Shown here piece after piece: positions 2,500-27,536 of a stretch of DNA of 33,197 nucleotides. The position numbers and the translations under genes are program-made. Below the pieces are notes generated by a model that ran no database searches, was not told where the DNA came from, and was given only the letters and a program-made list of their open reading frames with translations. The DNA is from Lutibacter sp. (GTDB lineage: Bacteria > Bacteroidota > Bacteroidia > Flavobacteriales > Flavobacteriaceae): assembly GCA_028696945.1 (NCBI GenBank), contig JAQVGD010000012.1:1-33197 (forward strand), given 5' to 3'. Position 1 is the stretch's first letter, and every line of letters starts with the position of its first letter.

Positions 2500-3308
2500 A
2501 GTCGGAAGTCGGAAGTCGGGAGCCGGAAGTCGGAAGTCAGAAGTCGGAAGTCAGAAGTCGGAAGTCGAGAGCCGGAAGCCGGAAGTTGGAAGTCAGAAGT
2601 TGGAAGTCAGAAGTCGGAAGCCGGAAGTCAGAAGTCGGAAGTTGGAAGTCAGAAGTCGGAAGCCGGAAGCCGGAAGTCAGAAGTCGGAAGTCCGAAGTCG
2701 GAACCGCAATTAATTCCCCTCTCGAGAAGCCTGTCCCGCTTTTCCAGCGGGAGGGTTAGGGGTGTGTAAAAAACATGAAATTATTTGAAAAATTCCGCTC
2801 GCGCTCGCGTTCGGAAGTCAGAAGTCAGAAGTTCACAGCAATTAATTCCCCTCTTGAGAAGCCTGTCCCGCTTTTCCAGCGGGAGGGTTAGGGGTGTGTA
2901 AAAAACATGAAATTATTTGAAAATCTCTGCTAGAGCTAGTGTTGGGAAGCAGGAAGTCAGAAGTCGGAAGTCGGGAGCCGGAAGTCAGAAGTCGGAAGTC
3001 AGAAGTCGGGAGCCGGAAGTCAGAAGTCGGAAGTCGGAAGTTAGAAGTTAGAAGTCGGGAGCCGGAAGTCGGAAGTTCACAGCAATTAATTCCCCTCTCG
3101 AGAAGCCTGTCCCGCTTTTCCAGCGGGAGGGTTAGGGGGGTGTAAAAAACATGAAATTATTTGAAAATCTCTGCTAGAGCTAGAGCTAGTGATTGGAAGT
3201 CAGAAGTCGGAAGTCGGAAGTCAGAAGTCAGAAGTCAGAAGTCAGAAGTCAGAAGTCGGAAGTTCACAGCAATTAATTCCCCTCTCGAGAAGCCTGTCCC
3301 CCGCTTTT
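2500..3308. repeat. Composite intergenic repeat array: degenerate 7-bp tandem repeat (GAAGTCR) alternating with about 85-bp hairpin-bearing units
   Basis: GAAGTCG/GAAGTCA runs (2500-2702, 2814-2832, 2953-3076, 3196-3264) and near-identical blocks 'GCAATTAATTCCCCTCTCGAGAAGCCTGTCCCGCTTTTCCAGCGGGAGGGTTAGGGGTGTGTAAAAAACATGAAATTATTTGAAAA' near 2705, 2837, 3081 and a truncated copy near 3268. Confidence 0.95.
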
Positions 3309-7790: not shown

Positions 7791-7864
7791 TCCTCCTTAG
7801 CTCAGTTGGTTAGAGCATCTGACTGTTAATCAGAGGGTCCTTGGTTCGAGCCCAAGAGGAGGAG
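7791..7864 (+). tRNA. tRNA-Asn(GTT)
   Basis: Cloverleaf by eye: acceptor TCCTCCT/AGGAGGA, anticodon arm TCTGA-CTGTTAA-TCAGA (anticodon GTT), T-arm CTTGG-TTCGAGC-CCAAG. Confidence 0.97.
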
Positions 7865-7874
7865 CAAAACGAGT

Positions 7875-8169: not shown

Positions 8170-9681
8170 ATGGCAAAAAAAACCAATGGAGGCACATTTG
8201 AACAACAATTGTTTAAAGCTGCCGATAAATTACGGAAAAACATAGATGCGGCTGAGTACAAGTATGTAGTGCTAGGCTTGGTTTTCATCAAATATATTTC
8301 TGAAAGTTTTGATGAATTATACCAAAAATTAAAAGATGATGAGTATTCAGACCCAGAGGACAGGGATGAATATATTGCCGAAAATGTATTTTTTGTGCCG
8401 CCGACAGCACGTTGGTCACACCTGCATAACAATGCCAAACTGGCTACCATTGGGCAAACCATTGATGAAGCAATGGAAGCTATTGAAAAAGAAAATCCAG
8501 AGCTTAAAAATGTGTTGCCAAAAGTATATGGAAAAGCCAATTTGGACAAAGCATCCTTGGGGCAGTTAATAGATTTGATTTCAAATACCGAGTTACAGGC
8601 TGAAAATGAAAAATCCAAAGACCTTTTTGGCAGAGTGTATGAATACTTTTTAGGGGAATTTGCCAATGCCGAAGGTAAAAAAGGTGGACAATTCTACACA
8701 CCTAAAGCCATTGTAAAATTAATGGTTGATATGATTGAACCATACAAAGGGCGCGTGTATGATCCCGCTTGCGGTTCTGGCGGTATGTTTGTGATGAGTG
8801 AAAAATTTGTAACTGAACACCAGGGAAATATTAATGACATTACCATTTATGGGCAAGAAAGCAACCAAACCACTTGGAAACTGTCTAAAATGAACCTTGC
8901 CATACGTAATGTAAATTCACAGTTTGTAAATTGGAATACAGAAGGCTCTTTTTTAAAAGATGCACACCCTGATTTAAAAGCCGATTTTATTTTAGCCAAC
9001 CCGCCATTTAACCAAAGTGATTGGGGTATAGAACTTTTACAGGATGATGCGCGGTGGAAATATGGCATCCCACCAAGTGGCAATGCCAATTTTGGCTGGA
9101 TGCAGCATATGTTGTACCATTTGGCGCCAAAAGGGGTAATGGCAACCGTATTGGCCAATGGCTCGTTAAGTTCAAATACTTCTGGTGAAGGTGAGATTAG
9201 AAAAAACTTGGTTGAAAATGATTTGGTGGAATGTATTGTAGCCTTGCCAAAACAACTGTTTTACAATACTGGCATCCCAGCGTGTATTTGGTTTTTACGA
9301 CGTGAAAAAAGCAATCACAGCAAAGAAGTATTGTTTATAGATGCTTCTGAAATGGGCTATATGAAAGATAGAAGTCATAAGGATTTATCTGAAGAAGATG
9401 TAAAACGAATTGCTGATACCTACCACAATTGGCGTAAAAGAGAAAATTATGAAGATATAAAAGGTTTCTGTAAAGCTGCAAAAATTGAAGAAGTTATTAA
9501 ACACAACCACGTTTTAACTCCTGGTCGTTATGTAGGCATTGAAGATGAAGAAGACGATGGTATTTCATTTGAAACAAAAATGACTGAACTAACAACTGTT
9601 TTAAATGAACAAATGGCTAAAGAAGAAGCCTTGAATGAGGAGATAAAACAACAACTTTCTAATATTGGGTTTCAATTATGA
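8170..9681 (+). CDS. hsdM: Type I restriction-modification system, adenine-specific methyltransferase subunit
   Basis: 503 aa; '[13 protein letters not shown]' and '[12 protein letters not shown]' (NPPF catalytic motif), HsdM N-terminal domain. Confidence 0.97.
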
Positions 9682-10895
9682 GTGATATAAATGTTATGCA
9701 AAAAGGTTGGGCTGAATGTAATATTGGTGAATTAGTTGAATTAGCACAAGGTGTGGCAATCAATGCTAAGACAAATTATGTACTTTCTGATAAAAAGAAT
9801 GGTATTCCATTGTTAAAAATCAATAATTTATTAAATAACACTGTTGACCAATATGCTAATCCTGATTTAGTTCCAAAACAAAGTATAATCAATAAAAATG
9901 ATGTGATTTTTACAAGAACAGGGCAAGTTGGAGAAGTTCTAACAAATAAATATGGAATATTGCATAATAATAGCTTTAAGGTTATTCCTAATGAAAAGTT
10001 ATATTGGAATTATCTATATTGGTATTTGAAGAGTAGAAAAGTCTATAATTATGTACAAAAAGTCGCGGCAGGTTCAGTTCAAAAAGATTTAAATCATAGT
10101 GCTTTTAAAACTATTCTATTTAAATATCCTGAAAATATAGATGAACAAAAATCCATTGCCAATATACTCACAGCTTTTGATGATAAAATAGAGTTACTCC
10201 AACAACAAAACCAAACATTAGAAGCTCTAGCACAAACTATTTTTAAAGAATGGTTTGGTAAATACCAAGTTGGTGATGAATTGCCTGATGGTTGGAGAAT
10301 TGGTAAGTTGGGGAAAATGGCAAATTTAAAATCAGGTTATGCGTTTAAAAGTAATGATTTTGTAGAATTGAATAGTAAAAAGGCTTTAAAAATAAAAGAT
10401 TTAAAGGGAAATGGCAGAGTTGATTTGAGTGATATTTCAAGTGTTTCAGATGAAATTACAGCAATTAGTAGAGTTAAATATTTTAAGTTAAATGCAGGTG
10501 ATATTGTAATAGCTATGTCAGGAAATACAACAGGTAAAATTGGTGTAGTTCCACCTCATTCAAATGAAGTTTATTTGAACCAGAGAGTGGGGAAGTTTTT
10601 TATGGTAGATGATAAATTAAATAGCTTTTTATATTCTTTTTTAATGTCAGGTAATTATGAAGAAAAAATATTATCAATGGGATATGGGAGTGCCCAACCA
10701 AATATAAGTCCATCACAAATTGAAGATATTGATATTATATACCCTGATAATGAAACGATTAAGAAATTCAGTGATATTTCTAATCCAATATTTCAGAAAG
10801 TATTAGATAATAATGCTCTAATCCAATCCCTTACCAAAACACGTGATGCTTTGTTGCCAAAATTAATGAGCGGGCAGGTTAGGGTTAAAATGTAA
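9678..10895 (+). CDS. hsdS: Type I restriction-modification specificity subunit
   Basis: Two target-recognition-domain halves separated by helical '[39 protein letters not shown]', C-terminal '[16 protein letters not shown]'; 4-bp ATGA overlap with hsdM. Confidence 0.95.
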
Positions 10896-11001: not shown

Positions 11002-12450
11002 ATGAGTTTTGATACAGTTATTCCAACGGCAAAAAGAATAGAACGTTTACAATATGAAAACCCTTGGTGGACAACAGGCAATGTGCAACAAACCTACCGA
11101 GAAATGTCTAAACGCTTGTATTTTAATTTGTTCTATCCTTTTGTAAAAGAAACTGATATTAAGCGTGCTGTGGTGCTTATGGGCCCCAGAAGAGTTGGTA
11201 AAACAGTTATGATGTATCATACCATTCAAGAGTTAATTAAAGAAAATATTTCGCCACAAAAAATCTTTTTTATAGGTATAGACAATCCTATATATTTGCA
11301 CTTAAGTTTGGAAGATATTTTGTTGTTGGCAAAAGAAGCAGTACAAGCAGCTATCTTAGAAGATTGTTTTGTTTTTTTCGATGAAATTCAGTATTTAAAA
11401 GATTGGGAGCGCCATCTTAAAGTGTTGGTTGATAGGTATCCCAAAACAAAATTTGTAGTATCGGGTTCTGCTGCTGCTGCTTTGCGTTTACAAAGTACAG
11501 AAAGTGGTGCTGGCAGGTTTACAGATTTTATGTTACCACCGCTTACCTTTCACGAATACATTCATTTAAAGGGTTTAAATCATTTGATACAAGCTAAAAG
11601 CATCGTTTACAACGGTAAAGAAATTCCTTTTTTTACCACCCACGATAACAAAGCTTTTAACAAAGAATTTTTTCATTACCTCAATTTTGGTGGATATCCA
11701 GAAGTGGTTTTGTCCGAAAAAATACAATCGGATATGGGGCGATACATAAAAAATGATATTGTAGATAAAGTGTTGCTTAGAGATTTACCCAGTTTATATG
11801 GCATTAAAGACGTGCAAGAATTAAATAGCTTTTTTACCTATTTGGCATACAACACAGGGAATGAATTTTCATTTGAGAAATTGTCTAAAGACAGTGGTAT
11901 TCAAAAAGAAATCATAAAAAAATATTTAGAATATCTTGAAGCCGCATTTTTATTAAAGGTAATACACAAGGTTAATGATAACGCCAAAAAGTTTAAAAGA
12001 ATAACGAGCTTTAAAGTGTATTTAACCAATCCTTCTTTACGAACAGCCTTATTTTCTCCCATTGTAGAAACAGATAATGAAATGGGCAATATGGTAGAAA
12101 CTGCTATTTTTTCTCAATGGATGCATCGTGAAAATCTCGATTTAAAATATGCTCGTTGGAAAATGGGACGTGCTGAAGGTGAAGTTGATATTGTACTGCT
12201 GGATAACAAATTATTTAAACCACAATGGTGTGTGGAAATAAAATGGAGCAATCGCTATGTTGACAAACCACAAGAATTAAAAAGCCTAATCTATTTCTGT
12301 AAACAAAATAATTTTAAGGCAAGTTTGGTAACAACTATTGATGTTTTAGCTAATAAAACGATAGAGGATATAAATCTAACCTATGTTCCTGCGGCTGTTT
12401 ATGCGTATAACATTGGTGTGAATACACTAGAAATAAAAACAAATTGGTAA
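11002..12450 (+). CDS. ATP-binding protein, AAA_14/DUF4143-type
   Basis: 482 aa; Walker A 'MGPRRVGKTVMMY', Walker B 'CFVFFDEIQYLKDWERHLKVLVD', 'VVSGSAAAALR', C-terminal DUF4143-like 'EVDIVLLDNKLFKPQWCVEIKWSNR'. Confidence 0.9.
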   Translation: MSFDTVIPTAKRIERLQYENPWWTTGNVQQTYREMSKRLYFNLFYPFVKETDIKRAVVLMGPRRVGKTVMMYHTIQELIKENISPQKIFFIGIDNPIYLHLSLEDILLLAKEAVQAAILEDCFVFFDEIQYLKDWERHLKVLVDRYPKTKFVVSGSAAAALRLQSTESGAGRFTDFMLPPLTFHEYIHLKGLNHLIQAKSIVYNGKEIPFFTTHDNKAFNKEFFHYLNFGGYPEVVLSEKIQSDMGRYIKNDIVDKVLLRDLPSLYGIKDVQELNSFFTYLAYNTGNEFSFEKLSKDSGIQKEIIKKYLEYLEAAFLLKVIHKVNDNAKKFKRITSFKVYLTNPSLRTALFSPIVETDNEMGNMVETAIFSQWMHRENLDLKYARWKMGRAEGEVDIVLLDNKLFKPQWCVEIKWSNRYVDKPQELKSLIYFCKQNNFKASLVTTIDVLANKTIEDINLTYVPAAVYAYNIGVNTLEIKTNW

Positions 12451-12453
12451 AAA

Positions 12454-12645
12454 ATGCTCAATGAAAACTCCATAGAACTTGCTTTTGCAAACCAATTGGT
12501 TGGCCAAAAGTACTTGTATCAGTATGGTCAGATATTGCCCGATACAATCGCAATCCACACCGAGAATGTTTTTAAGAGTTTTTATGAAACTAAATATAAA
12601 ATTGTTGATGTTATAGAAAATGGACCTAATGATTTGCCATTTTAA
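12454..12645 (+). pseudogene. Truncated hsdR 5'-end duplicate (63-aa ORF)
   Basis: MLNENSIELAFANQLVGQKYLYQYGQI matches the start of full hsdR (MPNLNENSIELAFVNQLVGQGYTYFYGPEI); DNA 12461-12508 is nearly identical to the same stretch of hsdR near 14929-14976. Confidence 0.8.
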
Positions 12646-12650
12646 AAAAA

Positions 12651-14903
12651 ATGAATTTTATGAAAAACGTACAAAAACCAGAAAAAATACATCTTGGAAA
12701 ACTTATAGAAGAAATAAAAAAAGGAAGGTTTGTAATACCAGATTTTCAGCGTGAATTTGATTGGCAGCCTTGGGATGTAAGAGATTTAGTGAAATCCATT
12801 TTTATGGATTATTATATTGGCACGCTTCTATTATGGGAGGGAAATAAAGAAAATTACAGAAAACTTGGTTGTGCGAACTTATATGCATTTAATGAAACTT
12901 CAGACCCAGAATTTATAGTTTTAGATGGTCAGCAAAGATTATCAGCACTTCACTATGCTTTTTTTCAACCAGATATAAAGTTTAGAAATAGGAAAAACCC
13001 CATTTATTTTTTCATCAGGCTTAAGGAATTGCTAGACGAAAACTATGAAGAAGCTTTTTTTTATTATAGTAGAACCAAATATTATGATGACTTGGTAGCC
13101 GATGTTAATATACAATATGAAAATCATATTTTTCCTCTAGGAATTATGCAGCAGGGGTCTTGGGGTATTGATGATTGGATTAAAGGCTATAGAGACTACT
13201 GGAATGAGCAAGCTGAATTAGAAGTTGACAATGAAAAGAAAACAGAATTAGAAGCACTTTCTGCTGCTGCAATTGAAATAAGACACGTATTTTCAGACCT
13301 CTTAAATAACTACCAGGTTAGTTATATATCACTCGCTAAAGAGTTGCCACTTAATAAAGTATGCGACATTTTTACACATATCAACTCTAAAGGTAAGCCA
13401 TTAGATACGTTTGATTTAATAAATTCCATTACTCGAAAAGAAGATGTTTACCTTAAAGAAATGTATAGGGAGGCATCAAAATTAATTGATGATATTAGCT
13501 ATCCAGGCTTTGAAATGAAAACTCATATTTTGATGGTGATGTCCATCATAAAACAAAATTATTGTAGTGCCAAGTATTTATATTATTTAGTTCCTGGAGA
13601 AAAGAAAAAAATAAAAAATAAAGAAGGGCAAAACGAAGAAATTATTTTAATAAATAATAAAGAAGAGTTTATAGATTTATGGAATTTGGCAGTTGGAGCT
13701 ATTGATAAAACTTTAAATAGTTTAAAAAATCAACGAGAATTTGGAGCAATCACAGCTAAGTTTTTACCCTATCCTTCAATTATTCCTTGTTTATCAGCCA
13801 TAAAATATTATGTAAAGACCTCTGAATTAAAAAACAAAGTTGACATCCATTCTAAAATTAAAAAATGGTATTGGGCTTCCATTTTCTTAAACAGATATTC
13901 CAGTTCTGTGGAAAGTACATCTACAAAGGATTTTATGGATTTAAAAAAGTGGTTTGATAATGATGACCTAGAGCTAGATGCAGTATCAGAATTTATAGGA
14001 GTCTACAAAAATATTGATTTACATAAAGAAAACAGAAACGGTTCTGCAATTTATAAGGCTATTTTCAACTTGTTTATTTTAAATGAAGCACGTGATTGGG
14101 AGACATTTGAATTACCTGAATATGACGATTTAGATGACCATCATATTGTTCCTAAAAGTTGGGGAAAGGAAATAGGTTTAGGTCAGGATATCAATACTAT
14201 TCTTAATAAAACACCACTTTCAGGAGATACAAACCGGAAGGTTATTAGAAATTCACTGCCAAATGTTTACATTAAAAATATGTTTACTAATAATGATGAA
14301 GAAAAGGTTTTTAAAGTATTAAAATCACATTTAATTAGTAAAAAAGCAGTCGAGATATTATTAAGAGAAGACTTTAGTGTTGTTGATTATAAGGAGTTTA
14401 TTGCAGAAAGGAAGAGTACGATTATTAATGCCATTTATAATATGGTTATTAATGAAACGGTGGAGCTTCCAGAGGATTTATTTAAAATTAATAATGATAT
14501 AGAGGCTCTTGAATTAAAATTTAGAGAGATTATAATCACTAATTTATTTTTGTATAATAGATCCAGTTTAAAGGAAAACTTATCGCCTGATATTTATGAT
14601 AAGTTAAATCAAAAAATTAATCGTGAAAGAAAGCGTAATCCAAATTTGGTTGAAATAAATATTGAAGATGTTGATTATTGGCTGCAGTTTTCAGATCTAC
14701 AGGAATTACAAAGTTTAATAACTTCAAAACTGCACTGGCATAAATTTGAAGGAATGTTTGTTAATAAAGAGCGATTAACTTCTGAATTTAATGATGTGGC
14801 TAACCTTAGAAATGCATTAAGACATTCACGAGAAGTTGATACTATTACAAGGATGAAAGGAGAAGCATCTATTTTATGGTTTAAACAACAATTATCTATT
14901 TAA
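12651..14903 (+). CDS. DUF262/DUF1524 (GmrSD-like) protein with probable C-terminal Swt1-type HEPN domain
   Basis: N-term 'IHLGKLIEEIKKGRFVIPDFQREFDWQPWDVRDLVKSIFMDYYIGTLLLWEG...FIVLDGQQRLSALHYAFF' (DUF262); 'DDHHIVPKSW...NTILNKTPLSGDTNRKVIRNSLPN' (DUF1524 HNH); C-term 'LQFSDLQELQSLI..KLHWHKFEGMF..KERLTSEFNDVANLRNALRHSRE' (RNxxxH). Confidence 0.85.
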   Translation: MNFMKNVQKPEKIHLGKLIEEIKKGRFVIPDFQREFDWQPWDVRDLVKSIFMDYYIGTLLLWEGNKENYRKLGCANLYAFNETSDPEFIVLDGQQRLSALHYAFFQPDIKFRNRKNPIYFFIRLKELLDENYEEAFFYYSRTKYYDDLVADVNIQYENHIFPLGIMQQGSWGIDDWIKGYRDYWNEQAELEVDNEKKTELEALSAAAIEIRHVFSDLLNNYQVSYISLAKELPLNKVCDIFTHINSKGKPLDTFDLINSITRKEDVYLKEMYREASKLIDDISYPGFEMKTHILMVMSIIKQNYCSAKYLYYLVPGEKKKIKNKEGQNEEIILINNKEEFIDLWNLAVGAIDKTLNSLKNQREFGAITAKFLPYPSIIPCLSAIKYYVKTSELKNKVDIHSKIKKWYWASIFLNRYSSSVESTSTKDFMDLKKWFDNDDLELDAVSEFIGVYKNIDLHKENRNGSAIYKAIFNLFILNEARDWETFELPEYDDLDDHHIVPKSWGKEIGLGQDINTILNKTPLSGDTNRKVIRNSLPNVYIKNMFTNNDEEKVFKVLKSHLISKKAVEILLREDFSVVDYKEFIAERKSTIINAIYNMVINETVELPEDLFKINNDIEALELKFREIIITNLFLYNRSSLKENLSPDIYDKLNQKINRERKRNPNLVEINIEDVDYWLQFSDLQELQSLITSKLHWHKFEGMFVNKERLTSEFNDVANLRNALRHSREVDTITRMKGEASILWFKQQLSI

Positions 14904-14915
14904 CTATTAGAATTT

Positions 14916-17900
14916 ATGCCTAATCTCAACGAAAACTCCATAGAACTTGCTTTTGTAAACCAATTGGTTGGTCAAGGATACACGTATTTTTATGGTCCTG
15001 AAATTGCACCATATAGCAGTAATTTACAACGTGAAAGTTTTGAGAGTATTATTTTAGAAAAGCAGTTTAAAGAAGCATTGGTAAAGCTAAATCCAACTTT
15101 ACCAGAAGGTGCATTAATAGAAGCGTATCAAAAAGTTATCAATTTAGGCACACAGGATGTGATGGAAAACAATGAGCGTTTCCATACAATGCTAACCAAT
15201 GGGGTTCCTGTTGAATATGCAAAAGGAGAAGGTGTAAAAGGTGTTAATGTTCAGTTAGTAGATTTTGAAAAAGCTTTTAAAAATGAGTTTTGGGTAGTCA
15301 ATCAATTGGTTACAAAAGAAAACAATATTGAAAAAAGATTAGATGTAGTAATCTATATCAATGGGTTGCCATTAGTAGTTGTAGAACTCAAAAATGCTAC
15401 AGATGAGAAGGCTACAGTTCGCAAAGCATTTACCCAAATACAAAACTATAAAAAAGCAGTTCCTAGCATATTTTACTACAATGCGCTATGTATTATTTCT
15501 GATGGTATTGATGCTAAAACTTCTAGTTTATCTGCTCCTTTCACACGTTTTTTATCTTGGAAAGCACCTAAAGAAAGTAATAATCTTTCAATAAATGTAA
15601 TAAATAAGTTACCCTTAGCTGCTGAACCAACTGTTGAGTATGACAAAACTGAATTACAAATTTTAACTGAACAGATGCTTCAAAAAGAGGTATTGTTAAA
15701 ATTAATTAGGTATTGTACTGTGTTTGAAAGTGAGGAGAAAAAAGATGAAAATACAGGCTTAATTTCAATAGTAAAAATTAAAAAAGTAGCTGCATATCAT
15801 CAATATTATGCAGTTCAAAAAGCAGTTGAACAAACATTAAGAGCCACTCATAAATCTGATGGAGATAGAAAAGTTGGTGTAGTTTGGCATACACAAGGAA
15901 GTGGAAAATCCTTATCAATGGTGTTTTTTAGTGGACAAATTATCACACATCCACTAATGAAAAATCCAACATTGGTAATTTTAACTGATAGGAATGACCT
16001 AGATGACCAATTGTTTGGCACTTTTGGAAATTGCGTTGGGTTATTAAGGCAAACGCCTGTACAAGCTGCGAATAGAGAACATTTGAAAGAACTATTAAAA
16101 GTGTCTGGTGGCGGTGTGGTTTTTACTACCATTCAAAAGTTTTCCCCGGAAGAAGGCAATGTGTATGATACCTTATCTGAAAGAATAAATATTGTGGTAG
16201 TAGCGGATGAAGCACATCGCAGTCAATATGGTTTTACAGGAAAAGTGGTTGAATTAGAGGAAGGTTCAGAAATACGTTACGGAAATGCTAAGTATTTACG
16301 TGATGCCTTACCAAATGCCTCATTTATTGGTTTCACAGGAACACCTATAGAAAAAGCAGACAAATCTACACCTGCTGTTTTTGGAGATTATATAGATGTA
16401 TATGACATTAAACAAGCAGTGGATGATGGTGCTACGGTACCAATTAGTTATGAGTCACGCTTGGTTAAGATTAAATTAAATTCTCAGGTAGGTAGTGAAA
16501 TTGACTCATTAGTAGATGCTATTAGCAATGCAAGTGAAGAGCAATTAGAAAAAGCAAAGAAGAAAACAGCTACAATAAATGCAGTTGTTGGGCATCCAGA
16601 CAGGTTAAAAGATGTTGCACTTGATATTGTAACACATTTTGAAGCACGCCAATCTATATTTGAAGGCAAAGCGATGATAGTATGTATGACACGTCAAATA
16701 TGTGTTGATTTATTTGCTCAAATTATTAAATTAAGACCTGAATGGGATGAAGCAGATAAAGATAAAGGAGTCATAAAAGTAATAATGACCAGCTCTTCTG
16801 ATGACCCAGAAGGTTTCCAACCACACCATACCACAAAGCAACAAAGAAAAGAACTTGCAATAAGAATGAAAGATCCAAATGATGGGTTAAAATTGGTAAT
16901 TGTACGTGATATGTGGCTTACAGGTTTTGATGCTCCAAGTATGAATACAATGTATGTTGACAAGAAAATGCAGGGTGCTAATTTAATGCAAGCAATAGCA
17001 AGGGTAAATCGAGTTTATAAGGATAAACCAGGAGGACTTATTGTAGATTATATTGGAATAGGGCAAGAATTACGAGGTGCAATGGCAACCTATTTACAAA
17101 GTGGAGGAGAAGGAACTGCTTTTGTAGATATTAGAGAAGCTATAGCAGGAATGCTAGAAAAGTTTGAAATAGTAGAACAACAATTTAATGGCTATGATTA
17201 TAAGGCTTATTTTAAAGTTGAAACCAATAAAAAATTACAAGTTTTATTGGGTGCTCAAAACTTTATTTTAGCAAGTGAAAATTTAAAAGACAGGTTTTTA
17301 CGTGAGGTAACAGCTTTATCAAAGTTGTTTGCTATGTCAGTACCAAGTTTGCAAGCTGACAGAATTAAAGACGATGTCGCATTTTTTCAAGCAGTAAAAG
17401 CAAGAATAAATAAGTTTATACCTTCAGGAACAAAATCTGATTATGAAGTTGAGACAGCCATAAAGCAAATTGTAGATGATGCATTAAGTAGTGATGGTGT
17501 AATTGATATTTTTGAAGCAGCAGGAATAAAAGCACCTTCAATAGGAATTTTATCAGACGAATTTTTGTTGGAAGTAAAGAATATGAAGCAAAAAAATGTA
17601 GCCTTTGAACTATTAAAAAAATTGCTAGGTGATGAAGTAAGACTTCGTAAGACAAAGAATATATCACAATCAAAAAAGTTTTCTGAAATGTTAGAGCGTG
17701 TGGTAAAAAGATACCACAACAATCAAATCGATTCAGCACAGGTATTAGAAGAATTATCTACTATTGCACGAGAAATGAGGTTAGAAGACCATAGGGCAGA
17801 AGAACTTGGTTTAACTTCTGAAGAATACGCATTTTACAGTGTGTTAAACCAGAATGATTCTACTAAAATGTTGGATGACCATAAAATGAAAGAACTTATT

Positions 17901-18095
17901 CATCACATTGTAGAAATCATCAGTAAAAATGCCACTGTAGATTGGAGTAAAAGAAGTGATGTCAGAGCTAAATTAAGATTGACAGTTCGTAAAATTTTAA
18001 TACGCTATGGTTATCCACCAGATTTAGCGCGTTTAGAAGCTGATAGAGTTCTAGAGCAAAGTGAGTTATTGGCTGAAGAGTTGAGTAGGGCGTAG
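14916..18095 (+). CDS. hsdR: Type I restriction-modification system endonuclease/translocase subunit
   Basis: 1059 aa; nuclease motif 'LDVVIYINGLPLVVVELKNA', Walker A 'VVWHTQGSGKSLSM', 'VVADEAHRSQYG', 'FIGFTGTPIE', 'MQAIARVNRVYKDKPGGLIVDYIG'. Confidence 0.97.
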   Translation: MPNLNENSIELAFVNQLVGQGYTYFYGPEIAPYSSNLQRESFESIILEKQFKEALVKLNPTLPEGALIEAYQKVINLGTQDVMENNERFHTMLTNGVPVEYAKGEGVKGVNVQLVDFEKAFKNEFWVVNQLVTKENNIEKRLDVVIYINGLPLVVVELKNATDEKATVRKAFTQIQNYKKAVPSIFYYNALCIISDGIDAKTSSLSAPFTRFLSWKAPKESNNLSINVINKLPLAAEPTVEYDKTELQILTEQMLQKEVLLKLIRYCTVFESEEKKDENTGLISIVKIKKVAAYHQYYAVQKAVEQTLRATHKSDGDRKVGVVWHTQGSGKSLSMVFFSGQIITHPLMKNPTLVILTDRNDLDDQLFGTFGNCVGLLRQTPVQAANREHLKELLKVSGGGVVFTTIQKFSPEEGNVYDTLSERINIVVVADEAHRSQYGFTGKVVELEEGSEIRYGNAKYLRDALPNASFIGFTGTPIEKADKSTPAVFGDYIDVYDIKQAVDDGATVPISYESRLVKIKLNSQVGSEIDSLVDAISNASEEQLEKAKKKTATINAVVGHPDRLKDVALDIVTHFEARQSIFEGKAMIVCMTRQICVDLFAQIIKLRPEWDEADKDKGVIKVIMTSSSDDPEGFQPHHTTKQQRKELAIRMKDPNDGLKLVIVRDMWLTGFDAPSMNTMYVDKKMQGANLMQAIARVNRVYKDKPGGLIVDYIGIGQELRGAMATYLQSGGEGTAFVDIREAIAGMLEKFEIVEQQFNGYDYKAYFKVETNKKLQVLLGAQNFILASENLKDRFLREVTALSKLFAMSVPSLQADRIKDDVAFFQAVKARINKFIPSGTKSDYEVETAIKQIVDDALSSDGVIDIFEAAGIKAPSIGILSDEFLLEVKNMKQKNVAFELLKKLLGDEVRLRKTKNISQSKKFSEMLERVVKRYHNNQIDSAQVLEELSTIAREMRLEDHRAEELGLTSEEYAFYSVLNQNDSTKMLDDHKMKELIHHIVEIISKNATVDWSKRSDVRAKLRLTVRKILIRYGYPPDLARLEADRVLEQSELLAEELSRA

Positions 18096-18190: not shown

Positions 18191-18811
18191 TTAACGGATA
18201 ACTCCACTAACTCTGTCAACGTTATCTTTTATTCTTGTAAAATGTATTGAGAGCTTGAATATAAATAAATATGCACCGTAATCACTTAAAGTAAATAATC
18301 GCTCATCCTTTAAGTCTTTTGATTGTAAAAGATTAATTGGACAATTATTTAGTCTATCTAAAAAGATTATTGAATCTTCAATTTGCCCTTTTATTTTTGG
18401 AAGAAAAAATATTTGTGTTAATTTCTGTTTTTTTATAGTAGCTATATGCTCTTCAATTTGTTTCTTGTTTTTTTTTGAATCTTTTAAAAGAGTTTCTTTA
18501 TATTTTTTTAAATTGAGTATAGGAGCATAAACAATTTGAGCAGGAAAACTTCTTAGATTTTTAGGGTCAATATCACAAGTATTTGAAAGAATTATACTAT
18601 TTGCTTCTTTTACGGTTGATTCGGGTAAATTAACAATTAGCATATTTTTTATTCCATCACCCTGAAAAATATTAGTTGAATTTTTAAGTGCTGAAGTATA
18701 TAACCTTGAATCAAGATTGTTAGGAAAATCTTTAAGTCCATCAAAAAGCTCTTTTTCAGATTTACTTGATAGAAATTTTGGAAGATATAATTTTATTTCG
18801 TCAAAATTCAT
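18191..18811 (-). CDS. Conserved hypothetical protein, third gene of a TIGR04255-like operon
   Basis: 206 aa; 'IILSNTCDIDPKNLRSFPAQIVYAPIL' and 'LSDYGAYLFIFKLSIHFTRIKDNVDR'; 10-bp gap from the upstream gene, same strand. Confidence 0.75.
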   Translation of the reverse strand: MNFDEIKLYLPKFLSSKSEKELFDGLKDFPNNLDSRLYTSALKNSTNIFQGDGIKNMLIVNLPESTVKEANSIILSNTCDIDPKNLRSFPAQIVYAPILNLKKYKETLLKDSKKNKKQIEEHIATIKKQKLTQIFFLPKIKGQIEDSIIFLDRLNNCPINLLQSKDLKDERLFTLSDYGAYLFIFKLSIHFTRIKDNVDRVSGVIR

Positions 18812-18821
18812 AAAACTTATA

Positions 18822-19127
18822 TTATAACAAATCCCAAAAATTCTTATTTACAATTTCTGCAAATTCTGAGTCTAATTCTTGTGAATTTTGTGTCAGCTCT
18901 TTTGAAAATTTTATTATAATATTTAATTTTTCAGAATCTTCTCTTTGATTTGTATCATAGCTTGTGATATTAGAATTATAACCCCAATGTGAGTCAGAAT
19001 TTTGAAAATTATATTTAGCTTCAAGAGAAGGAGTTATTTTATCATAATCCTCATATTTTAAGGGTAAGACTGTAGAACTAATGGCAGTCATTAATACTAA
19101 ACTCGTTAAATTAGTGCTTGTTCCCAT
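18822..19127 (-). CDS. Small hypothetical protein, second gene of a TIGR04255-like operon
   Basis: 101 aa, N-terminal hydrophobic stretch (NLTSLVLMTAISSTVLPL); starts 3 bp after the stop of the 19131-19844 gene. Confidence 0.7.
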   Translation of the reverse strand: MGTSTNLTSLVLMTAISSTVLPLKYEDYDKITPSLEAKYNFQNSDSHWGYNSNITSYDTNQREDSEKLNIIIKFSKELTQNSQELDSEFAEIVNKNFWDLL

Positions 19128-19130
19128 GTT

Positions 19131-19844
19131 TTAATATTTTGGATTTAATTTTTTTAAATATTCATCACTAATTAACTCAAAAAATAATTTTTTTTCTATT
19201 AGATGACCTTCGTTAATTAGTGTTTCTTTATTGTTGAAAAAATCTTGAAGTCCCTTTGTCTTATGACAATCAATGTCAATAATTGAACCAAAAATATCAT
19301 TTGATTTTGCGTCATTTGATATTTGTAAAGTGCTGACAAATTTACCATTACTAAATTCAGTTCTAATTACACTTTTTTGACTTTTTAATTTTTTATTATC
19401 TAAAATAATTTCTAATTTAATATTATTAAAAATATCCTCATTGAAGAAGTTAATGTATCTTATTCCAAGTCTTTCAACTTCATTGATAATTTTTAATTCT
19501 TCTACTTTATTTAAAATTTCAAATATTTTAGATGAAAATTTTTTCCACCCTACGTATTTAGGATATGAACCAATAGCTAAAACATCTGGTCCGATTTGAA
19601 TAACAAACTCATCATTTGAAATACGATATAATGGTTTGTATTTAAAATTTGGGTCAGACATTCTAATTGGTTCTGGAATTTGTAAAATTGGTAGGTCTTC
19701 AATTTTACTAAAGTCAGATTTTAAAGCATTATAAATGATTCCAAAGATCGCGTTTTGATGAATTTTAGATGTAAACCTAATTTCTATCAAAGCATCTATT
19801 ATAGGGCAATTCTCAATGCTTTTAGGTAAGGTATTAGTTATCAT
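19131..19844 (-). CDS. TIGR04255-like family protein
   Basis: 237 aa; 'PIIDALIEIRF...', 'PLYRISNDEFVIQIGPDVLAIGSYPKYVGWKKFSSKIFEIL' pattern resembling the TIGR04255 family. Confidence 0.7.
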   Translation of the reverse strand: MITNTLPKSIENCPIIDALIEIRFTSKIHQNAIFGIIYNALKSDFSKIEDLPILQIPEPIRMSDPNFKYKPLYRISNDEFVIQIGPDVLAIGSYPKYVGWKKFSSKIFEILNKVEELKIINEVERLGIRYINFFNEDIFNNIKLEIILDNKKLKSQKSVIRTEFSNGKFVSTLQISNDAKSNDIFGSIIDIDCHKTKGLQDFFNNKETLINEGHLIEKKLFFELISDEYLKKLNPKY

Positions 19845-20098: not shown

Positions 20099-20127
20099 GT
20101 CCTTAATTCGAGCCCAAGAGGAGGAGC
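20099..20127 (+). repeat. att-like direct repeat: partial copy of the tRNA-Asn 3' end
   Basis: GTCCTTAATTCGAGCCCAAGAGGAGGAGC matches 7837-7865 at 27/29 positions; followed by a terminator-like hairpin (ACCATTCAA...TTGAGTGGTTTTTTT). Confidence 0.9.
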
Positions 20128-22326: not shown

Positions 22327-22354
22327 ATCAGAGAGTCCTTGGTTCGAGCCCAAG
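22327..22354 (+). repeat. att-like direct repeat: second partial copy of tRNA-Asn
   Basis: ATCAGAGAGTCCTTGGTTCGAGCCCAAG matches tRNA 7829-7856 at 27/28 positions. Confidence 0.9.
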
Positions 22355-26480: not shown

Positions 26481-27536
26481 TTAATCACAATGTTTTTCAA
26501 GTTTGAATTTATTGTCTTCAAAACGCAAATCAATTTCATCATCATCTTCTATTTCATGAAGCTTCCAATCAAAGGAAAAATCGGCTAAAGTTTCAAAATT
26601 TATTTTTAATAAGATGTCGGTATCAGATGAGTCAACTTCCCAGGTTCCAAAAATTTCATTTCCATTATTAATCGCTTTTAAAACTCCTTCACTCAAAAAG
26701 AAGAAGGTATAATTTTCATATTGCTCTGTTTGCTCAACATCATTAATTTTAAGTTTATCAACTTTCCAAGAACATGTTTTTAACAATTGGGTTAATTGTT
26801 CTTGAGAACAATCGTCGCAATCATCATCATCGTAATCATTGTCGTCATCTTCATCGCACATATCTTTAACCTGTTCAATTTCATTTTCTAACATATCCAT
26901 ATTTTCAATGTTTCTTTCTGTACCATCAAAAAGGATTATTGAAATTGGAAAATTAATGACTACTATATCGTTATCATCTATATCGTCAATCAATTTATAA
27001 AACTGCTCATCATTTACAACACTCACAGTTTTAGTTAATTGATTTTCTGAATTATACATAGACAAGCTTATTGGATATACAAAATCTAAACATTCAATAT
27101 CGTCATCTATTTCGTTTTCATCTCCACAATCCTCAATTAAAGCTTCTAGTTCATCTTGCGTATTGATGGTTATTTTGGAATAATCATTTAAAATAACTAC
27201 AATTGGGAAAAATATTTCTAAGTGATCTGAATCATCATCAAATTCATCAAAAATAGCTTCTATTACTTCAAAATCATCTTCTGAATCTACGTAAATCTCT
27301 AATCCGTTTACACTTACTGTTATTGGAAGTTGAACTTGCAAACAACTCGAATTGTCGATAATATTATCTTTTGAACCATCTTTTGTAACTGTGCGTTGTA
27401 CTAAATTGGTTACATTAGCGTTCACTTTTAAAGCTTCGCCTTGGGCTGGTTCTGTAATTTGTGATATTTCATCCTGACAAGAAATAAACGCCACAAAAAA
27501 TAAACTTAGAAAAAATAAATTGTAGAAATGTTTCAT
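26481..27536 (-). CDS. Acidic lipoprotein with four internal beta-type repeats, Asp-rich linker and lipocalin-like C-terminus
   Basis: 351 aa; lipobox-type signal (FLSLFFVAFISCQDE); four 'xPIxxxx...' modules; D-rich 'DEDDDNDYDDDDCDDC'; C-term 'LKTCSWKVDKLKIN...EGVLKAINNGNEIFGTWEVD'. Confidence 0.8.
   Translation of the reverse strand: MKHFYNLFFLSLFFVAFISCQDEISQITEPAQGEALKVNANVTNLVQRTVTKDGSKDNIIDNSSCLQVQLPITVSVNGLEIYVDSEDDFEVIEAIFDEFDDDSDHLEIFFPIVVILNDYSKITINTQDELEALIEDCGDENEIDDDIECLDFVYPISLSMYNSENQLTKTVSVVNDEQFYKLIDDIDDNDIVVINFPISIILFDGTERNIENMDMLENEIEQVKDMCDEDDDNDYDDDDCDDCSQEQLTQLLKTCSWKVDKLKINDVEQTEQYENYTFFFLSEGVLKAINNGNEIFGTWEVDSSDTDILLKINFETLADFSFDWKLHEIEDDDEIDLRFEDNKFKLEKHCD

Follow-up and report, generated by a model that had tools for sequence, protein, structure and literature searches.

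The gene at positions 12651–14903 of the window, by which we mean the whole 33,197-nt stretch of Lutibacter sp. analysed here (GCA_028696945.1, contig JAQVGD010000012.1, forward strand), encodes a three-domain fusion of the VNG7073 type, in which a DUF262 domain, a helical linker, an HNH domain and a HEPN domain follow one another in a single chain with the motifs of all three domains intact. We favor, with some reserve, the reading of this protein as a GmrSD/BrxU-class anti-phage enzyme that is encoded by a single mobile gene, would carry two effector activities in one chain and would complement HsdMSR without depending on it. The features of the protein are as follows.

12651–14903, + strand: GmrSD/BrxU-type DUF262-HNH-HEPN protein of 750 aa; open reading frame with the likely true start at ATG 12660
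12693–13430, + strand: DUF262 domain (GmrSD_N, ParB/Srx fold), PF03235 over residues 15–260 with E 7e-32; DGQQR (residues 92–96) at 12924–12938
14040–14405, + strand: HNH / His-Me finger (DUF1524-like) domain, D-H...N...N conserved, model matches to BrxU and Cas9 HNH; HH of DDHHIVPKSW (residues 497–498) at 14139–14144
14463–14900, + strand: Swt1/Abi2-type HEPN domain, from conservation, profile comparison and fold matches
14808–14825, + strand: HEPN motif RNALRH, R720-N721-A-L-R-H725 (R-x4-H), invariant in 7 members

The second ATG, at 12660, is probably the true start of the gene, because a 90% identical copy on another Flavobacteriaceae scaffold (L001) and the relative L030 both begin with MK(N/D)VQKP, and because the DNA homology to L001, which covers 12660–14894 of the window and nowhere else, starts exactly at that codon. 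The dN/dS values against L001 are 0.04 for DUF262, 0.05 for the linker and HNH, and 0.11 for HEPN, values that point to purifying selection on each part of the protein.

Judged by profile and by model, residues 1–600 are a GmrSD/BrxU-type enzyme. The FQR, DGQQR and FxxxN motifs of DUF262 are invariant in the six members aligned, and the HNH signature DDHH...N519...N528 is kept in full-length relatives, the E/D-H-N-N residues of the GmrSD HNH being those defined by Machnicka et al. A family profile built from 21 relatives matches BrxU (7p9k) with an E value of 9e-43 over 558 positions. In the AlphaFold2 model (pLDDT 85), for which the input sequences were those of the window, L001 and viral contigs, residues 5–600 align to BrxU with Z scores of 17.3 and 16.8 over about 490 residues at about 17% identity, SspE and DndI align to the same model at Z 8–9, and Cas9 HNH domains match its residues 461–582. 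By analogy with the GmrSD family, cleavage of modified DNA with stimulation by NTP is predicted for this protein. The specificity for modified DNA is unreadable from the sequence, the signal recognised by close DUF262 relatives being glc-hmC for GmrSD, several cytosine modifications for BrxU and phosphorothioate for SspE.

The C-terminal domain of about 145 aa (residues 605–750), of a kind that ordinary GmrSDs lack, is well supported as a Swt1/Abi2-type HEPN by three lines of evidence, namely the conserved R-N-x3-H, a profile link and fold matches. The seven tails compared (that of the window and six relatives) have a mean pairwise identity of 34% and a minimum of 24%, and share 12 invariant columns; E621 and R625 in the first long helix, and R720, N721 and H725, are invariant in all seven. 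The invariance of R, N and H spans bacteria and a haloarchaeon, and an invariant R-x4-H arises in 1.3% of trials when the invariant residues are placed at random. Such conservation of the catalytic residues fits the RNase activity predicted for the tail.

As regards the profiles, neither Pfam, PF18731 included, nor NCBIfam makes a direct HEPN call on the window tail, and the tails of the relatives match PF18731 below the cut-off (1e-4 to 0.09). The link is a transitive one: the tail family profile draws stand-alone proteins, all five of those scanned being HEPN_Swt1 members above the Pfam cut-off, and hhalign of the tail family against the stand-alone HEPN_Swt1 set gives a probability of 98.4% and an E value of 1e-14 over the motif region. 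The PADLOC profile PDC-M34B matches 7/7 tails as well, at best with 9e-16. A model of the tail (pLDDT 83), built from two sequences, those of the window and of L001, has HEPN structures as six of its first seven fold matches (AbiF with Z 8.5, Csm6' 8.3, a HEPN toxin 6.9, and others 5.8, 5.7 and 5.5); we take these matches as supporting evidence, not decisive alone, because the Z scores are moderate for a helical domain. Foldseek on its own returned nothing significant for the tail model, and a search of solved-structure sequences with the tail profile brought up no relevant entry. PF18731 has 0 matches in the window's own genome and likewise 0 in the control genomes, so that its absence carries no weight.

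The initial annotation had described a GmrSD-like DUF262 domain with the motif DGQQRLSAL, a DUF1524 HNH-type motif, and a Swt1-like C-terminal HEPN with RNxxxH. The first agrees with the PF03235 match; the second is borne out by the conserved residues and by the profile and fold matches to BrxU, Pfam itself making no DUF1524 call (PF07510) on the 750-aa protein. The third stands as well, HEPN structures being the top fold matches and RN...H being conserved in homologues, with the correction that the protein does not end at LRNALRHSRE and runs 25 residues past RNALRH.

The missing Pfam and NCBIfam calls could be taken to mean that the fusion is a product of chance or annotation and that the C-terminal 145 aa are an ordinary GmrSD tail. 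We regard this as highly improbable; it is contradicted by four full-length relatives besides L001 in which the same tail continues in frame, namely L025 (G301), L030 (G780), L024 (G464) and L010 (on a Persicobacter plasmid), and by the structure and profile evidence given above. A split Halobacterium plasmid gene also carries the HEPN tail. We also checked 29 DUF262-HNH relatives from viral contigs, and they too speak against a chance fusion: wherever the 3' end is complete, the protein terminates at about profile position 600, except for one with an unrelated tail. Scans of the viral contigs with the full family recovered DUF262-HNH relatives, none of those checked having the HEPN tail, and scans with the HEPN part alone recovered no relatives; in the closest viral relative (L035, 44%) the contig ends before the gene does. 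DUF262-HNH-HEPN genes are uncommon: two samples, each of some 400 genomes, one drawn from the phylum and one from the family, yielded the full-length fusion in 4 distinct genomes, counting that of the window. It should be mentioned that the Halobacterium gene is annotated in pieces on pNRC100, pNRC200 and PHS1 (L009, L032 and L114), with a small ORF, WP_000124630, between them, and is apparently interrupted.

We have also considered a plain GmrSD-type enzyme whose HEPN domain would be only structural or nucleic-acid-binding, its motif being kept for dimer packing. Some HEPN families, such as eukaryotic Swt1, are indeed inactive binders (PMC3710099), ordinary GmrSDs function without the tail, and the tail has diverged more quickly than the remainder of the protein (84% vs 91% identity to L001). 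However, R, N and H are invariant at a minimum pairwise identity of 24%, while most other positions have changed, and we judge this explanation rather unlikely, although it carries some weight.

The gene lies within a Type I restriction-modification (R-M) operon, with the order hsdM, hsdS, DUF4143 ATPase, GmrSD-HEPN, hsdR.

8170–9681, + strand: hsdM, Type I methyltransferase (PF02384, PF12161)
9678–10895, + strand: hsdS, Type I specificity subunit (PF01420, two stretches)
11002–12450, + strand: AAA_14 / DUF4143 ATPase, neighbouring cargo gene (PF13173, PF13635)
12454–12645, + strand: 63-codon ORF, hsdR 5' relic; first 73 bases 85% identical to the resident hsdR start at 14925–14997
14916–18095, + strand: hsdR, Type I restriction subunit (PF04313, PF18766, PF11867); begins 12 bases past the GmrSD-HEPN stop

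The ORF at 12454–12645 looks like the relic of a second hsdR allele, in the manner of a recombination scar, and its position upstream of the gene suggests that an hsdR start either accompanied the cassette on its arrival or was the place through which it recombined. It is probable that the GmrSD-HEPN gene and hsdR are co-transcribed, because a Bacteroidota-type promoter-like site (10975, TTG-N19-TACATTTG) precedes the DUF4143 gene, with no such site visible immediately upstream of GmrSD-HEPN or of hsdR. The DUF4143 ATPase gene is itself the candidate PDC-S01 in PADLOC. In five related Type I systems (L122–L126) the cargo between hsdS and hsdR differs, comprising a PD-(D/E)XK gene, a RhuM-like gene (a name read from sequence), an ordinary GmrSD (twice), and a deaminase with other genes. 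The location looks like cargo capture rather than a conserved partnership, although a second Type I embedding is seen in L030, and the hsdS-hsdR interval acts as an exchangeable cargo slot.

Such an arrangement could also be that of a PrrC-like latent toxin, the HEPN domain being silenced by HsdMSR and freed when a phage protein inhibits or evades the complex. PrrC provides the model, and Anantharaman et al. extend the PrrC idea to R-M-linked HEPNs (PMC3710099); the gene is part of the hsdMSR operon and stops 12 bases short of hsdR, and L030 lies between the end of hsdM and hsdS, with start and stop overlapping. However, the 90% identical L001 is adjoined by a different R-M system, consisting of an Eco57I-type methylase and a T5orf172-ResIII helicase, with no hsdMSR recognised in the 22 kb examined, and L024 and L025 have no adjoining R-M genes, so that in these genomes an obligate HsdMSR antidote would have to come from some other locus. 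The consistent pairing with Type I R-M that would mark a PrrC-type system is thus not seen, L001, L024 and L025 having no Type I genes nearby. We consider the latent toxin improbable, and dependence on HsdMSR is unlikely.

The contexts of L001, L030, L024 and L025 instead identify the gene, at the level of sequence, as a mobile one-gene cassette that has moved between unrelated R-M loci and is often found beside R-M genes without being tied to Type I. The initial annotation was right to embed the gene in a Type I operon, between hsdS and hsdR, but overlooked the DUF4143 gene and the hsdR relic. Its proposal of a layered design together with HsdR agrees with the Type I embedding here and in L030, whereas the presence of L001 in an unrelated R-M locus, the stand-alone relatives and the variable cargo of the slot speak against it. 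Its functional proposal, cleavage of modified DNA joined to an abortive RNase, is plausible and resembles the one made by Anantharaman et al. 2013. Type I embedding as a conserved feature of the gene was likewise dropped after L001, L024 and L025.

On a larger scale, repeats of the 3' end of a tRNA-Asn gene flank the R-M locus.

7791–7865, + strand: tRNA-Asn, island integration site, 3' end attL-like, from repeat comparison
20099–20127, + strand: attR-like repeat of the tRNA-Asn 3' end, 27/29
22327–22354: second downstream repeat of the tRNA-Asn 3' end, 27/28

The best match to this repeat in shuffled sequence was 18/29. The tRNA and the first repeat enclose the R-M locus, and the first and second repeats enclose hipBA. 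In the congener G852 the tRNA-Asn is followed directly by a homologue of the window ORF 26481–27536, an empty site, and in the congener G843 the tRNA-Asn and a perfect 28-base copy of the repeat bracket a Type IIG enzyme. The repeats, the empty site and the Type IIG insertion place the R-M locus, by comparison of these genomes, in a tandem tRNA-Asn defence island, a hotspot in which no integrase is visible. Several further observations concern this region. In the congener G845 a 650-aa ORF without a PADLOC match (L144, 1336–3288) lies just after the same tRNA-Asn and is possible island cargo. Three island ORFs occupy 18191–19844 of the window on the minus strand, one belonging to the TIGR04255 family (E 1e-41) and the others without a family match. 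Positions 2500–3263 of the window hold intergenic arrays of a 7-base repeat (AGTCGGA / GGAAGTC).

In the mechanism that we propose for the single-gene enzyme, DUF262 would sense foreign or modified DNA with NTP and HNH would then cut the sensed DNA. The HEPN domain would be held inactive in cis, and a change of assembly of the BrxU type would alter the pairing of HEPN domains and lead to RNA cleavage as an abortive backup. The place of the gene in the hsdS-hsdR slot would probably allow it to share expression and mobility with its neighbours. HEPN RNases are as a rule active in dimeric form. The assembly switch of BrxU is a nucleotide-driven monomerisation of dimers (PMC12409352), and together these two properties make it a natural hypothesis that assembly state and RNase control are linked; the switch might either activate or silence the RNase. 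That DUF262 sensing controls both HNH and HEPN through an NTP-driven assembly switch, with restriction first and suicide second, in a one-gene cassette that recombines between R-M operons, is a possibility that we put forward only tentatively.

Among the known systems, BrxU (7p9k) and Eco94GmrSD share with the window protein the DUF262 and DUF1524/HNH domains, all signature residues and the fold over residues 5–600, but have no HEPN tail, and the identity to BrxU in the structural alignment is about 17%. SspE and DndI are phosphorothioate-sensing relatives with the DUF262 fold (Z about 8–9) that work with Ssp or Dnd modification genes, whereas none of these was recognised among the window neighbours scanned. 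Type I operons that harbour a GmrSD gene are already on record with RloF (Machnicka 2015) and TgvAB, where, as in the window, the GmrSD-type gene lies between hsdS and hsdR or within the operon. TgvAB restricts phages with modified DNA but needs two proteins where the window has one, and the parts of the sources available to us describe a HEPN domain for neither TgvAB nor RloF. PrrC is a HEPN RNase linked to Type I R-M, and in RloC an NTPase fused to the HEPN domain keeps it in check in cis; their sensor is, however, an ABC-type NTPase and they lack an HNH nuclease, whereas the window protein has DUF262 and HNH. HEPN domains adjoining or fused to other R-M or Type IV systems are also known, as in the DUF499 systems and CoCoNuTs.

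The closest precedent is VNG7073, which has the same domain order and HEPN family as the window protein. In Table 1 of Anantharaman et al. 2013 it appears under the Abi2/Swt1 family as "ParB (DUF262) with HNH (DUF2081) (VNG7073), active"; the authors suggest that release of a HEPN domain fused to a restriction nuclease provides a second layer of defence (PMC3710099). The architecture and the idea of an RNase backup have thus been known since 2013, and the window protein is a well-supported further member. The Halobacterium pNRC100/pNRC200 protein WP_010890508, which from its plasmid and position we infer to be VNG7073, aligns over HNH and HEPN and keeps RN-x3-H. In the literature examined we found no test of the 2013 prediction of a HEPN backup for the DUF262-HNH-HEPN architecture. 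Unlike the haloarchaeal gene, which is split in these records and has no R-M operon around it on its plasmid, the gene of the window is unbroken and lies within hsdMSR; this intact bacterial copy and the 90% identical L001, in its other R-M context, form a convenient pair for testing the DNA and RNA effectors and for asking whether the surrounding R-M system matters.
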